In this document: positions 762-29,861 of the stretch, one piece after another
Position numbering within the stretch: position 1 is the first letter of the stretch
Layout: each line of letters starts with the position of its first letter
Assembly (NCBI GenBank): GCA_012727815.1
Contig: JAAYGI010000021.1
Span: 1 to 41,626, forward strand
Origin: Erysipelothrix sp.
GTDB taxonomy: Bacteria; Bacillota_I; Bacilli_A; Erysipelotrichales; Erysipelotrichaceae
Direction: 5' to 3'
Length of the DNA stretch: 41,626 bases
Translations under genes and position numbers: made by a program
The notes under the pieces: model-generated
The model's database searches: none
What the model was told of the DNA's origin: nothing
The model's input: only the letters and a program-made list of their open reading frames with translations

Positions 762-778
762 ATCCATGGAGTGTGCAT

Positions 779-1234
779 ATGGAAATAACTTTTATAAATC
801 AGAGTGAAGACAGTACTTGGGAAAACTATGAACAATACTTAAGGCCTTTGTTAGAGAAGACTTTAAATCTTGTTTCTTTTTCTTTAGATGTTGAAGTATC
901 AATCGTGTTGGTAGATACAGAAACGATACATCAATACAATAAAGATTACAGAAATATAGACAGACCTACAGATGTGTTAAGTTTTGTTGATGGTGATGTA
1001 TTTGACGGTGTTACATCTCTTGGAGATATAATAATCTCTGTAGATGCATGTAAATCACAAGCACAGGAATACAAACACTCAATAAAAAGAGAGTTCTTAT
1101 TTCTAGTAGTACATGGTTATTTACACTTACTGGGATATGATCATGAAACAGAAGATGAAGAAAAAGAGATGTTGAGATTACAGAAGGAGATACTAAGTGG
1201 AATTGCTGATAGATTTGACGAAGAGATTCATTAG
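779..1234 (+). CDS. ybeY: Endoribonuclease YbeY (rRNA maturation factor)
   Basis: YbeY is a metal-dependent endoribonuclease that helps 16S rRNA 3'-end maturation and 70S ribosome quality control in the cytoplasm. The diagnostic zinc-site motif is near the C-terminus: HGYLHLLGYDHE, with the three metal-ligand histidines, followed by an acidic helix (EDEEKEM). The NKDYRNIDRPTDVLSF segment before it is also family-typical. Length (151 aa from ATG 779) is normal. GGAG at 768-771 fits ATG 779; a GTG six bases upstream is the alternative. The 3' end overlaps dgkA by 38 bases, as in the conserved Bacillota cluster ybeY-dgkA-cdd-era. Confidence 0.95.
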   Translation: MEITFINQSEDSTWENYEQYLRPLLEKTLNLVSFSLDVEVSIVLVDTETIHQYNKDYRNIDRPTDVLSFVDGDVFDGVTSLGDIIISVDACKSQAQEYKHSIKREFLFLVVHGYLHLLGYDHETEDEEKEMLRLQKEILSGIADRFDEEIH

Positions 1235-1565
1235 AAAATTCATAAATGCATTTAGTGGTTTGTGGGCAGGAATACGTTATGATAACAGTATTTTACTACA
1301 ATTTGTTCTGGCAGTCGCATCCATAATTGTATTTGCAATTATTAAAATTACTTTTGTGGAATGGATGTTTGTAATTAATGCGATATTTATTGTTATTATT
1401 ACAGAATTCCTAAACTCATCAGTAGAGGATCTTTGTGACCTCTTGGTTGACAAATATGATCTACATGTAAAAGAAATTAAAGATATTGCTGCGGCAGCAG
1501 TACTTCTCAGTGCAATATATGCAGTTATTGTTGCAGTGATAATCGTAGGGAGACATATGCTATGA
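1197..1565 (+). CDS. dgkA: Diacylglycerol/undecaprenol kinase DgkA
   Basis: Small integral membrane lipid kinase, 122 aa, which in Gram-positive bacteria phosphorylates undecaprenol to recycle the cell-wall lipid carrier. A short amphipathic N-terminus (KRFIRKFINAFSGLWAGI) is followed by three membrane helices. Between helices 2 and 3 lies the catalytic motif TEFLNSSVEDLCDL, matching the family pattern E-x-x-N-T/S-x-x-E. The KDIAAAAVLLSA stretch is also typical. GTG start chosen because AAGGAG (1184-1189) lies seven bases before it. It overlaps ybeY by 38 bases and cdd by four (ATGA), indicating translational coupling. Confidence 0.93.
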   Translation: MELLIDLTKRFIRKFINAFSGLWAGIRYDNSILLQFVLAVASIIVFAIIKITFVEWMFVINAIFIVIITEFLNSSVEDLCDLLVDKYDLHVKEIKDIAAAAVLLSAIYAVIVAVIIVGRHML

Positions 1566-1966
1566 AAGATAAATTACTAACTGAAGCATTCAAAGCAATG
1601 GAGAATGCTTATGCGCCTTATTCAAACTATCATGTAGGATCTAGCATCCTGACAAAAGATGGTGTGATTACCCATGGTGCTAATATTGAAAACGCATCTT
1701 ATGGTGCATCAAATTGTGGTGAAAGAAGTGCAATCTTTGCAACGTATTCAAAAGGATATAGAAAAGAAGATATTGAAGGAATAGCAATTGTTACTGATGG
1801 TGACATACTAGCAGGACCTTGTGGTATTTGCAGACAAGTCTTATCTGAGCTCTTAAATCTAGATACCCCAATTTACTTATCAAATAAAAAAGAAGAAAAA
1901 ACAACAAACATCCAAGAGCTTATGCCAATGATGTTTGGAAGAAAGGATCTTGATGACAGACTTTAA
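1562..1966 (+). CDS. cdd: Cytidine deaminase
   Basis: Tetramer-type cytidine deaminase (134 aa) of pyrimidine salvage, converting cytidine/deoxycytidine to uridine/deoxyuridine. The active-site pair is clear: the substrate/zinc motif NIENASYGASNCGERSAIF, with zinc Cys and catalytic Glu in CGER (more often CAER), and the second zinc motif PCGICRQVLSE. The N-terminal YAPYSNYHVG is the family signature. Start ATG overlaps the dgkA stop (ATGA). The 3' end overlaps the era start by 14 bases. Adjacent to era as in most Bacillota. Confidence 0.96.
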   Translation: MKDKLLTEAFKAMENAYAPYSNYHVGSSILTKDGVITHGANIENASYGASNCGERSAIFATYSKGYRKEDIEGIAIVTDGDILAGPCGICRQVLSELLNLDTPIYLSNKKEEKTTNIQELMPMMFGRKDLDDRL

Positions 1967-2852
1967 ATCAGGTTTTGTATCTATTGTAGGAAGACCCAAT
2001 GCTGGGAAATCAACACTTATCAATCAATTGGTAAAACAAAAGATTGCAATCGTTACAGATAAACCACAAACAACACGCGATGCAATCATCGGTGTCTTAA
2101 CAGAAGAAGAATACCAAATTATATTCACAGATACACCAGGAGTTCATAAACCTAAACATGAATTAGGAAACAGAATGAATGCAATTGCATATTCAAACTT
2201 TAGAGGAATGGATTTAATCTACTACCTAATGGATGCAAGTGTGCCTTTTGGAACAGGTGACCAATTTATCATTGATAAATTAGCAAAAGTAAAAACACCT
2301 ATCATTCTTGTCTTAAACAAGATTGATGCAATTTCCCAAGATGCATTATTACTGCGTATTGTTGAAATGAAAGAAAAATTAGACTTTGCAGAAATTGTGC
2401 CCTTATAAGCACTTAACAATGCAAACACCGATACACTTTTAGATGTTACATTATCATACTTAGATGATGGGATTATGTATTATCCAAAAGATACTGTATC
2501 AGCATATCCAGAACAATTTATAATTGCAGAAATTATCAGAGAGAAGATTATCAATCTTACTGAAGAAGAAATACCACACTCAGTTGCAGTTGCAATAGAG
2601 AAAATGGTACGCAAGAAAAATGTACTGGTTATCAGTGTTGTTATCTTCGTGAATAGAGATTCACAAAAAGGAATGATCATTGGTAAACAAGGTAAAATGA
2701 TTTCTCAAATTGGACAACAAGCACGTGAAGAATTAGAAAGTTTACTTGGAGAAAAAGTATACTTAGAAAACTACGTTCGCGTTGAAAAGAATTGGCGTAA
2801 TAAAGACCGCTTGTTGAATCAACTGGGATATATTGAAATAGAAGAAGCTTAA
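1953..2852 (+). pseudogene. era: GTPase Era, interrupted by an in-frame stop
   Basis: Era binds the 3' end of 16S rRNA and drives 30S assembly. Read through one TAA codon, the frame gives a full-length 299-residue Era. N-terminal GTPase motifs are G1 GRPNAGKS (13-20), G2 TT, G3 DTPG (60-63), and G4 NKID. The stop (2406-2408) is codon 152, in the context VP-L-stop-A, exactly where Era carries the G5 serine (VPISA); TCA to TAA is a single change. The same frame continues directly into the linker and the C-terminal KH domain (GKQGKMISQIG, the GxxG loop) up to 2852, with no other defect. ATG 1953 is chosen over upstream TTG because of AAAGGA at 1942-1947. Either a real nonsense mutation or a sequence error; the remaining codons show no decay. 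Confidence 0.9.
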
Positions 2853-2875
2853 AAGAAGATGGGATGGTACTTAAA

Positions 2876-4246
2876 ATGAGTAAATTTGAATTTGAAAAAA
2901 TAGTGAGTCACGTTAGAACCGCAGGTTTTGTATTCCAAGGTTCTGAAATTTATGGTGGATTGGCAAATACTTGGGACTATGGTCCTTTAGGAATCAACCT
3001 AAAAGATAATGTTAAAGAATTATGGTGGAATGCGTTTATTCGCAAGAACCAATACAACGTAGGATTACAATCAGCAATCCTAATGAATCCAAAAGTATGG
3101 GAAGCAAGTGGACACTTGGAAACATTCAACGATCCACTTATGGACTGTAGAAGTTGTAACACACGTCACCGTGCAGATAAATTAATTGAAGAGTTTACAA
3201 ACAATGAAGTTAATGCAGGTGCAATGACTGTTGAGGAAATGGCTTCATACATTGAAAAACATAAAATTCCATGTCCAAAATGTGGTAAACATGACTTCAC
3301 ACCTATTCGTGAATTCAACCTAATGTTTAAAACATTCCAAGGTGTTGTAGAAGAGAGTAGTAATGCTGTTTACTTAAGACCAGAAACAGCACAAGGTATC
3401 TTTGTTAACTTTAAAAACGTACAACGTTCAATGCGTAAAAAATTACCATTTGGTATTGGCCAAGTTGGTAAATCATTTAGAAACGAAATTACACCAGGAC
3501 AATTCATTTTTAGAACAAGAGAATTTGAACAAATGGAATTACAATTCTTTGTTAAACCAGAAGAAGCAAACCAATGGTATGAATACTGGAAGCAATTCGC
3601 AATGGATTTCCTTGTTGATATGGGAATCAAGCGTGAGAACTTACGATTTAGAGATCACGATGCAGATGAGTTAAGCCACTATTCAGAAGGTACTGTTGAT
3701 ATTGAATATAAATTCCCTTGGGGATTTGATGAAATTTGGGGTATTGCAAACCGTACAGACTACGACTTAAGCCAACACCAAAAATTCTCAAAACAAAACC
3801 TTGAATACCACGATTCAGAAACAAATGAGAAATTCATTCCATATGTTATTGAACCATCCGTTGGTGTAGAACGTTTAATGCTAGCACTTATGTGTGATGC
3901 ATACGATGAAGAAGAATTAGAAAATGATACAAGAACTGTAATGCATTTCTCACCACGTGTTGCTCCTGTTAAAGCAACTGTCTTACCATTATCTAGAAAA
4001 CTATCAGATGATGCACGTAAGGTTTGGGAAAGACTTGTAGATGAATTTGAAACTGAATTTGATGAAACAGCAAGTATTGGTAAACGATACAGAAGACAAG
4101 ATGCAATTGGAACACCATACTGTGTAACATTTGACTTTGACTCATTAGAAGACAATCAAGTCACAATTAGAGAACGTGATTCAATGGAACAAAAACGAGT
4201 TTCTGTTGATGAAGCAATTGCAATCATTAAAAAAGCAATTAAATAA
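2876..4246 (+). CDS. glyQS: Glycyl-tRNA synthetase, single-chain dimeric type
   Basis: Class II synthetase charging tRNA-Gly, here the alpha2 eukaryote/Mollicute-like form of 456 aa rather than the alpha2beta2 GlyQ+GlyS form. Seen in order: N-terminal [20 protein letters not shown] signature, a zinc module with CRSC (91-94) and CPKC (133-136), motif 2 in [20 protein letters not shown], and motif 3 in [13 protein letters not shown]; the anticodon-binding domain ([12 protein letters not shown] onward) closes the protein. ATG 2876 is preferred because relatives begin MSKF-; an in-frame ATG at 2864 is the alternative. No T-box leader is present: the gene follows era by only 23 bases. Confidence 0.96.
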
Positions 4247-4268
4247 TTAAAATGTAAAGGATGATTTG

Positions 4269-6026
4269 ATGGGGAATATACCAAAAGAACTTATAGATGA
4301 TATAAGAGCAAAATCAGATATTGTTGAAACAGTATCGTCATATATCCCTTTAAATAAAAAAGGGAAAAACTTTGTTGGTTTGTGTCCTTTTCATGAGGAC
4401 TCTAACCCATCAATGTCAGTAAATCCTGAACGCCAAATATTCAAATGTTTTGTATGTGGTGAGGGTGGTAATGTATTTACATTCATTGAAAAGTATGAGA
4501 AATCAAACTTTGTCAGTGCTGTTATAAAACAAGCAAGAAATCTTAATATCGATATGTCTCGCTATGAAACAACAAGCATCAAACCGGTAAACAAACATAA
4601 AGAAAAACTATTTGCATTGATGAAGGATGTTCAAAACTTTACTTCATACCAGCTTAAGTCAAAAGATGGTGCAGCAGCACTAGAGGTCTTAAGGCAACGT
4701 GGCTATCCCGATGAAATTATTGAAAAATTTGGAATTGGAGTGGCTTTATCAGGAAATCAGATATTGAAATTCTTAAAAGCTAAAGGTTATACAGAAGAAG
4801 AAATGTTAAGTGCTGATATTATACGTATTGGAGCTCAAGATTTACAAGATGTATTTTATCAAAGGATTATGTTTCCTATCAACGACCAATATGGTAATAC
4901 CATTGCCTTCAGTGCACGAGCACTTGATCAAAACAGTAAAGTTAAATATATTAACACTGGAGAAAGTGAACTATATACTAAAGGTAATAACATATACAAC
5001 CTTGATAGGGTAAAAAAAGAATTTAGAAATGCTGAGACAATGATTATAACTGAAGGTGTTACCGATGTATTTGCCTTCTCAATGGCAGGATATGATAATG
5101 CCGTGTCATTACTTGGAGTAGCGTGTTCAGAAACACAACTCCAACTCATTAAACGTAATACAAAATCTGTACTCTTAGCATTTGATGCTGATAAGGCAGG
5201 GTATGATGCAACCTTTGCACTGGGCTTAAAACTCAGCAGAATGCACATCCCATTAAAGATATGGTATAATGATTCTTCTTTAGATCCAGATGATCTATAT
5301 AAGCAAAAGGGAAAAGAAGCCATATCAAAAGGAATTGAAGAAGCACTAGGATGGTTTGATTTTCTACTAACATATGGTATTGGTTTATACGGTATAGACG
5401 CTTTTGATGATAAAAGACGCCTTATATCATTCTATCTACCACATTTAGAAAACCAAGACACGCTCACACAAGATTTCTATTTAGGACAATTAAGTAAGGT
5501 ATCTGGTTTTGATGTATTGACATTAAAAGCACAACTTAGAAATACAAACGCTCCTATAGAAAACTATGAGACACAAACAGCGCCTGTTGTAGAAAATTAC
5601 AATGATGCACTTTATACACAAAATATTCCAAGAGCTGAGCTTGAAATACTAAATCAGATGATATTATCTAAAGAAGCAACACAAATCTTTAGTAAGTCTC
5701 TGGGGTTTCTACCCAACGAATTGGCTCAAGAAACAGCACTTTTAATACAAAATGTATATAGAACACAAGATCATTTAGATCTGGCTGATGTACTATCAAA
5801 TGAACTAAGCGATAAAATGCGTAAATTCATTTTAGAACTAGAAGACAGACTTACATTCTATGCATATGAAAAAGAAATAGTTGAAGAAAATATAGAAGCC
5901 ATTAAGCAAAAAATGGATTCAAATAATAGTAGCAGTATGCTGAATAAATTAAAACTTGCTCAAGGAAAAGAAGAGCAGTCGAAATTATTAGATGCAATAC
6001 TAAAACGTAAAAATACTAGGAGGTAA
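4269..6026 (+). CDS. dnaG: DNA primase DnaG
   Basis: Synthesises RNA primers at the replication fork. Domains in order: CHC2 zinc finger with ligands Cys39, His42, Cys60, Cys63 ([10 protein letters not shown] ... [10 protein letters not shown]); the RNA polymerase core with a TOPRIM fold around residues 255-340 ([10 protein letters not shown], then [10 protein letters not shown] with the metal-binding acidic residues); and a divergent C-terminal helicase-binding region rich in Glu/Lys. 585 aa is usual for the family. ATG 4269 is preceded by AAAGGATGA; a TTG three bases upstream is the alternative. rpoD begins two bases after the stop: the macromolecular-synthesis operon dnaG-rpoD, without rpsU. 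Confidence 0.96.
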
Positions 6027-6028
6027 TT

Positions 6029-7369
6029 ATGAAAAAAGTTAAAACTTTAGATCAAGTAAAATTATCATTAATTAAGGATTACAAAGAAGAGGGGGTTTTA
6101 CTAAATAGTGAAGTTGAAAAAGCAATATCACATTTAGAATTAACAGATGATCAAACAGATGAGCTATTCAACTGGTTTGGTGAAAATGACATTGTCCTAA
6201 CAGATGAAGATGATGAAGAGTTTTTAGACGAAGATGAAGAGTTTTTAGGTGATGAAGATATCGATGGTGATTCTGAAGATGGTCCATTTGATGAATCAAG
6301 AAACACAGTAGACTTAAGATCTTATGACAATGAACTGACAACACAAAACGAAATTAGAATCAGTGACCCTGTAAAAATGTACTTAAAAGAGATTGGACGT
6401 ACAAACTTACTAACAGCAAAAGACGAACTTCAAATTGCACGTCGCGCGGATGAGGGTGAACTTGCTAAAACAATGGTTAAAGAAATCTATAAAGATCGTA
6501 TTGATCCTGATATCTCAGATGAAGATCTAGAAAATTTAAATATTGACGATGTTCGTATGACAATTGTCGCACATTATAAAAACGATGAAGCAAACCTAGC
6601 ATATGTAGAAAACGTACTGAACGCATACTATGATGGTCAAGAAGCAAGAGATCTATTAATCTCAGCTAACTTACGACTTGTAGTATCAATCGCGCGTAAA
6701 TACTTAGGTCGTGGAATGTTATTCTTAGATTTAATTCAAGAAGGTAATATGGGGCTGATTCGTGCAGTTGAAAAATTCGACTACTCATTAAAATATAAAT
6801 TCTCAACTTATGCTACATGGTGGATTAGACAAGCTATAACACGCGCTATTGCGGACCAAGCACGTACAATCAGAATTCCAGTACACATGGTTGAAACAAT
6901 TAACAAACTAACTCGTATTCAAAGACAACTTGTACAAGAATTAGGAAGAGAACCAGAAGCTGAAGAAATTGCAGCCCAAATGGAAAATATGACACCTGAA
7001 AGAGTACGTGAAATTCAAAAAATTGCACTAGATCCTGTATCACTTGAAACACCAATTGGTGAAGAAAATGATTCACATTTGGGTGACTTTATTGAAGATA
7101 AAGATGCATTATCACCAAGTGACTTTGCAAACAATCAGTTATTAAAAGATGAAATTGACATGGTTCTTCAAGGTCTTACAGAACGAGAAGAAAAAGTACT
7201 TAGATTAAGATTTGGTCTAGAAGATGGCCGTACACGCACATTAGAAGAGGTTGGAAAAGAATTCAACGTTACACGTGAAAGAATTCGTCAAATCGAAGCA
7301 AAAGCACTTCGTAAACTAAAACACCCAACCCGTTCAAAACGTCTACGTGACTTTATGGAAAGCCATTAA
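6029..7369 (+). CDS. rpoD: Primary sigma factor RpoD (SigA)
   Basis: Housekeeping sigma-70 factor, 446 aa. An N-terminal region 1.1-like helical part is followed by a very acidic linker (residues about 55-90) that contains an in-frame near-tandem duplication of 21 bases (DEEFLDE then DEEFLGD, 6212-6253). Then come region 1.2 ([11 protein letters not shown]), regions 2.1-2.4 ([40 protein letters not shown]), region 3 ([13 protein letters not shown]), and region 4.2 with its helix-turn-helix ([20 protein letters not shown]). AGGAGG lies just before ATG. The motif-rich regions 2.4 and 4.2 are intact, consistent with the TTGaca/TATAAT promoters found in this window. Confidence 0.97.
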
Positions 7370-28400: not shown

Positions 28401-28421
28401 TCAATTGAGGTGAGGGAATTT

Positions 28422-29861
28422 ATGAAAACACGTATGGAGCGCTATAAAGAACTTCGTGAGAAGATGTCAAATGAGGTTGAAACAAAAGTTCAATCTCAAG
28501 GCTTATCTGAGTATGCAAATCGGTTAAATAAAATAGATCAAAATAATTTTGATAATATGGAAGTAGAGTCTAATCCAGATTATAAACCGACTCGCGCCAA
28601 AGATGTCGAAGTAGATATGTATGAAACTTTTGAGAATGAGTACCTTAAAGATTTCCTTGAAGAAGTGAAGTCTTATAATATTGAAAAAGGTACACGAGTT
28701 GTTTCTGACACTAAAGAGAATATCTTAGAGAATATCAATGCACCAGAATCACAAGTAAATGGGAAACTTGGAACAAGCGAAGATCCTATTGGTCTTGAAG
28801 ATATTGGTATCTTTGATAATATTAAACAACCCGTAACTAACCGTGAAGAGATTGACACAAGTGCAATGGACTTCTTAAATAAAACAGCAGAGATTAAATA
28901 TGAAGATGATATTTTTTCTAATGCTGTCTCTGATTTGCTAGAAGAACCCATTGCAGTTCAAGAAAATGTTGAAGTAGTAGCTTCAGAAGATACACCAGCA
29001 GATGATTTTGGTTTTAATGATATGTTTAATACACCATCAGAAGAGTCAGAACCAGCTATGCCTGTATTTGAACCATCAGAAGTCTTATTTGATGAAACTG
29101 AAAATACAGATGAATTATTCGATACAGAATCAATTATTAATGCTTTAACAAATGATAACTTTTTCTCTGAGAAAGTTACTGAACCAGAAGCTTCTATTGA
29201 AGATGGACTTTTAGATACTTCTCAATTTCAAACATTTGATTTGGAACTTGAGCAAAGAAACAAAGAACATACGGATGAAATATTCCAAAATGTTGATGAT
29301 ACTTTCTTTGACGGCTTAAATTTTGGTGAAAATATCAACAAGGTTGAAAACCAAGTAGAACATTCAGAAAACAATGATCCATTCTGGACAGATTACATTC
29401 AAAAGATGAATGAATTGGAAGATAACATTGATGCTGTTTATGAAGGACCAAGAGATAACTTGAACTTCCCAGAATCAAGACCAGAACCAATTCAAACTAG
29501 AAGACCAGAGCCGGTTGAATCTCGTGATATTACTCAAGAATTTTTAGAACTTACACGAGAAATCGAACGTGATAACTTAGAGTCAATTGATTTAGGATCA
29601 CAGGTAAGTGAACCTGTAGTTGAAACGGTTGAAGAAATAGAAACAGTACGTGTTGAGGAAATTCCTGTCACAGTTGAAAAGCAAATAAGTAAGAATATAG
29701 AATTTACAGAAACGGCAGAGATGGATGATGCCCAAGATTTATATACACCATCAAAAAAAGAAACAACAAAAAACAGAGCAATTAATGCATTACTGACAGT
29801 TGCACTCGCAGGTATCATATTAGGTGTTGCTATTGCTGTTAAGTATTTCTTATTTAATTAG
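28422..29861 (+). CDS. Acidic tail-anchored membrane protein, unknown function
   Basis: 479 aa, which I do not recognise. The N-terminal 90 residues are mixed-charge and helical (MKTRMERYKELREKMSNEVE, then YETFENEYLKDFLEEVKSY). A long low-complexity acidic region follows (about residues 95-440), rich in Glu, Asp, Pro and Phe with repeated short motifs such as EPSE, EDIGIF, DTFFDGL and DPFW. The end is a basic cluster (SKKETTKNRA) and one hydrophobic helix (about residues 455-477) with only FLFN after it: a tail-anchored topology with the bulk in the cytoplasm. GAGGTGA precedes ATG 28422. It is the first gene of the cmk-der-gpsA cluster. A scaffold or regulator of envelope or division is possible but unsupported. 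Confidence 0.7.
   Translation: MKTRMERYKELREKMSNEVETKVQSQGLSEYANRLNKIDQNNFDNMEVESNPDYKPTRAKDVEVDMYETFENEYLKDFLEEVKSYNIEKGTRVVSDTKENILENINAPESQVNGKLGTSEDPIGLEDIGIFDNIKQPVTNREEIDTSAMDFLNKTAEIKYEDDIFSNAVSDLLEEPIAVQENVEVVASEDTPADDFGFNDMFNTPSEESEPAMPVFEPSEVLFDETENTDELFDTESIINALTNDNFFSEKVTEPEASIEDGLLDTSQFQTFDLELEQRNKEHTDEIFQNVDDTFFDGLNFGENINKVENQVEHSENNDPFWTDYIQKMNELEDNIDAVYEGPRDNLNFPESRPEPIQTRRPEPVESRDITQEFLELTREIERDNLESIDLGSQVSEPVVETVEEIETVRVEEIPVTVEKQISKNIEFTETAEMDDAQDLYTPSKKETTKNRAINALLTVALAGIILGVAIAVKYFLFN

Follow-up and report, generated by a model that had tools for sequence, protein, structure and literature searches.

The in-frame TAA that interrupts era in this Erysipelothrix sp. (positions 2406–2408) is probably a wrong base in the consensus or assembly of an otherwise normal, full-length gene, a reading to which we assign a probability of about 0.7. 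The initial annotation presented the stop as the loss of a gene important or essential in most bacteria, and itself named assembly or sequencing error as the alternative. Because TAA also interrupts topA and two ABC exporter genes of the same assembly, that alternative is now the likelier answer, and biological loss of era is unlikely. The window, i.e. the whole 41,626-base stretch that was analysed, is contig C113 of the source assembly (G000), which comprises 1,446,738 bases in 123 contigs, is rated 84.42% complete with 3.02% contamination, and was apparently reconstructed from a metagenome.

The features of the era region are listed in Table 1. In the frame that starts at 1953, positions 2397–2411 read GTG CCC TTA TAA GCA, or V-P-L-stop-A. 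The gene order ybeY-dgkA-cdd-era-tRNA synthetase is that of the usual era neighbourhood; the Figure 1 legend of PMC10582724 gives ybeY, dgkA, cdd and glycyl-tRNA synthetase as the customary neighbours. GTPase Era is represented in NCBIfam by TIGR00436 and NF000908, and matches to the era profile TIGR00436 extend over profile positions 1–143 before the stop and 147–270 after it. The former indicates that an N-terminal Era-type G domain is present, and the KH_2 match (PF07650, 68.5 bits) that a C-terminal KH domain is also present. When the gene was read through as a single frame, it scored 296 bits (cut-off 116.25) with one internal TAA, and it is at this codon that the single uninterrupted reading frame expected of Era is broken.

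Table 1. Features of the era region, with positions numbered as in the window
Feature	Position	Strand	Basis
Intact upstream neighbours ybeY (773–1234), dgkA (1197–1565) and cdd (1562–1966)	773–1966	+	Pfam; stop-free against relatives
era frame, read through	1953–2852	+	Terminal TAA at 2850–2852
era 5' part, closed by the in-frame TAA and holding most of the G domain (MTDFKSGF...IVPL-stop)	1953–2408	+	TIGR00436, 150.3 bits; Pfam MMR_HSR1
In-frame TAA at the G5 serine position of Era	2406–2408	+	Alignment column 152; codons of relatives
era 3' part, with the rest of the G domain, the linker and the KH domain, up to the terminal TAA	2409–2852	+	TIGR00436, 134 bits
Possible restart ORF, 125 aa, ATG start, linker and KH domain	2475–2852	+	ORF list; no Shine-Dalgarno match
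KH_2 match (residues 54–130 past the stop)	2568–2798	+	Pfam
Intact class II tRNA synthetase, which we take to be glycyl	2864–4246	+	Core (class II) and anticodon domains in Pfam; stop-free against relatives
Two intact downstream genes, presumably dnaG and rpoD from the usual gene order	4266–6026; 6029–7369	+	Align to relatives without stops

To place the stop within the protein family, an alignment of 123 Era loci was used, some of which represent one gene fetched twice; 120 of them cover column 152, the position of the stop. Serine occupies that column in 118 of the 120 covering sequences, and the placement of the nonsense codon at the G5 serine is therefore confirmed. Its derivation from TCA by a single change, as initially proposed, is an inference, since the genus relatives carry TCN or AGT at this codon. 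The leucine that stands beside the stop in place of isoleucine is ordinary (Leu in 7/120 sequences), and the idea of an odd double change at the Ile-Ser pair was dropped on that account. An imperfect palindrome that contains the stop (GTGCccTTATAAGCAC, 2397–2412) was likewise dropped, its core pattern showing no enrichment across the window (two matches, 0.85 expected).

Sequence on both sides of the stop is undamaged and free of frameshifts, as had been noted; the description of these flanks as perfectly conserved was too strong, identity to the nearest relative being 72–73%. For the KH part, the nearest named relatives are an uncultured Erysipelothrix (a metagenome-derived assembly; 75% identity) and Erysipelothrix inopinata (74%). 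Across the 45 columns conserved in at least 95% of the sequences, the window deviates at two, namely the stop and A229V. Comparison with four relatives from the genus yielded 0.27–0.32 amino acid differences per residue after the stop, versus 0.33–0.38 before it. Thus no decay beyond the stop was detected against these four relatives, neither the relaxed constraint nor the further lesions by which a decaying pseudogene is recognized. As the KH part is constrained like the G domain and shows no excess divergence, the stop is either very young or absent from the organism.

It was of interest to consider whether the two halves of the gene might be made separately, with the G domain terminated by the stop and translation of a KH protein beginning at ATG 2475. 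The ORF from this ATG contains the entire KH domain. The initial annotation placed the ATG after the linker, which is incorrect; it lies at the start of the linker, ahead of the whole KH domain. No Shine-Dalgarno match was found at ATG 2475 in the window; the 3–5 matching bases seen in the six relatives tested arise by coding chance. No improved restart site was found. Moreover, the methionine of ATG 2475 also occurs in relatives whose Era is intact, and a G domain released in this way would be deprived of its G5 end. A split Era is accordingly regarded as highly improbable.

A family search of the source assembly revealed no second era, its remaining matches scoring lower and being read as other GTPases. 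The second copy that the initial annotation suggested looking for was thus not found in this 84%-complete assembly. Among 60 genomes, the source assembly included, an Era-level match was found in 58. In 55 of these era is single and uninterrupted; the other Era-level matches are those of G011, G007 and the source assembly. The era of G011 is in two pieces, both of which lie at contig ends, and G025 (68% complete) yielded only lower-scoring GTPase matches. In G028, rated 98% complete, there were no Era-family candidates at all, other GTPases included; this genome was perhaps unreadable in the collection.

The era of G007 contains three stops, which result from three one-base gaps within about 100 bases. 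In the 107 kb around this gene, 9 of 106 proteins of relatives are split between frames, while the reverse comparison with G002 gave 0 of 102. The many frameshifted genes in this stretch of the single-contig genome (C1:983001–1089500) suggest indel errors in the G007 assembly. The idea that era has been lost repeatedly within the genus, for which the G007 stops had been considered as evidence, was therefore rejected; the frameshifts spread over G007 explain them, and G007 provides no second case of loss.

A true and very recent nonsense allele, in a population that tolerates the lack of full-length Era or as a minority variant taken up into the consensus, is possible but doubtful. In its favour, the stop is a clean one without any base pattern to mark it as erroneous, and loss of Era can be survived in some Firmicutes. 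PMC10582724 and PMC6738653 describe such loss as viable, with strong defects, in Staphylococcus aureus, Streptococcus pneumoniae, Mycobacterium tuberculosis and some Bacillus subtilis strains; on these sources Era is not essential in every Firmicute. As in the viable loss or KH-truncation mutants of S. aureus (PMC6738653) and Listeria monocytogenes (PMC10582724), the KH domain would be missing here. The S. aureus era mutant (PMC6738653) differs in being a laboratory mutant, and in the source assembly topA is cut as well. The stop in topA would need a separate explanation if that in era were a true allele. The lack of decay past the era stop also speaks against such an allele, as does the fact that no credible loss of era was seen in any other genome of the genus.

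In-frame stops elsewhere in the source assembly were surveyed in sampled stretches that cover 59% of its length. It is apparent that era is not the only gene affected. In topA, a TAA (C5:22478–22480, minus strand) falls at the invariant serine of the TOPRIM motif (DPDREGEAI-stop-WH) of a gene that is otherwise complete. Serine stands at this site in 12 of 12 relatives, none of which has a stop in topA. TopA is expected to be vital in this organism. Two ABC exporter genes each carry a single in-frame TAA in a frame that is otherwise whole, at C110:39349, where the three closest homologues have Glu, and at C6:43122, where G011 has Ala. These two would be unremarkable as ordinary pseudogenes.

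The frequency of such stops was assessed by a matched test against G011. With 174 G011 queries, 55,421 codons of the source assembly were aligned; 22 stops were flagged, of which four, all TAA, were judged genuine by eye, and there were no frameshifts. The others were set aside by eye as antisense, upstream or poor alignments. As a control the comparison was run in the opposite direction, where 183 queries aligned 57,103 codons of G011; 12 stops were flagged and one was judged genuine, as was one frameshift, and a second G011 frameshift was discounted as an artefact of joining sequence. On contig C10 of G011, close to its beginning, a TAG stands in place of a Gln codon and interrupts a gene. 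Random base changes in the codons of the source assembly yield a stop in 5.1% of cases, and 53% of those stops are TAA, so that the occurrence of TAA at all four sites is unremarkable.

A homology-free detector was also applied. In the source assembly it examined 627 coding-like segments (853,023 bases) and returned 16 candidates, of which those in era, topA and the C110 exporter were taken as genuine; in G011 it returned none from 212 segments (394,141 bases). This detector is blind to stops that lie soon before a start codon, such as that in the C6 exporter. Seven small contigs made up entirely of N (14,776 bases) were counted in the first scan and then excluded, and two further N contigs (4,806 bases) remain in the scan totals. 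Candidates of the homology-free scans that were discounted by eye comprised a transposase-like ORF on C5, an ORF on C25 that lacks a start codon and lies where that contig ends, neighbouring genes that share a frame, antisense frames, and short pieces.

The possibility that the era and topA stops are real but read through was weighed; a serine tRNA that suppresses ochre codons, or recoding of another kind, would then restore some Era and TopA. Both genes have TAA at a serine that is part of an invariant motif in relatives, and tRNA-Ser(UGA) was not found in the incomplete assembly. The presence of two serine sites among four stops gives a post hoc P of 0.017 for two TCA-to-TAA changes, which is a hint in favour of readthrough and speaks against a consensus error. 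None of the 21 tRNAs found in the 84%-complete assembly has a UUA anticodon, however, and TAA is the main terminator, ending 184 of 276 long open frames. In addition, the replaced residues are not the same throughout, being Ser in era and topA, Glu in the C110 exporter and Ala in the C6 exporter. Readthrough is thus very improbable. The same slight weight is given to its more specific form, in which a partial ochre-suppressing serine tRNA, encoded outside the assembled 84%, would permit Era and TopA to be made at low levels.

Taken together, wrong consensus bases account better than two separate tolerated losses for the fact that era and topA are each whole but for one TAA. In era, such a base could have arisen from low local coverage, from merged strains, or from a damaged or misread template. 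The DNA of the organism itself would then encode an uninterrupted Era, presumably with its ordinary role in assembly of the small ribosomal subunit. False nonsense codons are a known class of error in draft assemblies. The stops described here resemble that class as isolated substitutions that cut intact genes of a fragmentary assembly, but differ in that the error is proposed from the consensus sequence, not from reads.

These results are, of course, more a caution than a discovery, in that the apparent loss of a vital gene in a draft genome has to be weighed against similar stops across the assembly. Were the era and topA stops both true, the organism would have to manage in the absence of two major housekeeping functions or else decode UAA as sense, and either would be worth serious study.

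The remainder of the window was compared with the corresponding genes of relatives, and no stops or frameshifts were seen in its other genes. Unique replacements were counted in the window and in its relatives, with cdd and one further gene excluded because fewer than four relatives were available for them. The window has 214 unique replacements, against 114 to 157 in the relatives, a surplus that a longer branch would explain equally well. In the other window genes, seven of the 214 unique changes are radical replacements, and most of them lie in variable stretches. G:C>T:A changes account for 14 of 128 unique changes in the window, compared with 7/77 to 17/81 in the four relatives; a G:C>T:A signature such as a mutator or oxidation would leave was rejected, there being no excess of this class. 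The ordinary base spectrum of the unique changes and the undamaged state of the other window genes argue weakly against a consensus error in era. They do so only weakly because stops make up 5.1% of base changes, and the few missense errors to be expected would be too few to see. A further feature of the window is an ORF of 483 aa at 28410–29861, most of which is unmatched in the stretches from four relatives, their proteins of 290–351 aa matching just its first 110 residues or so.
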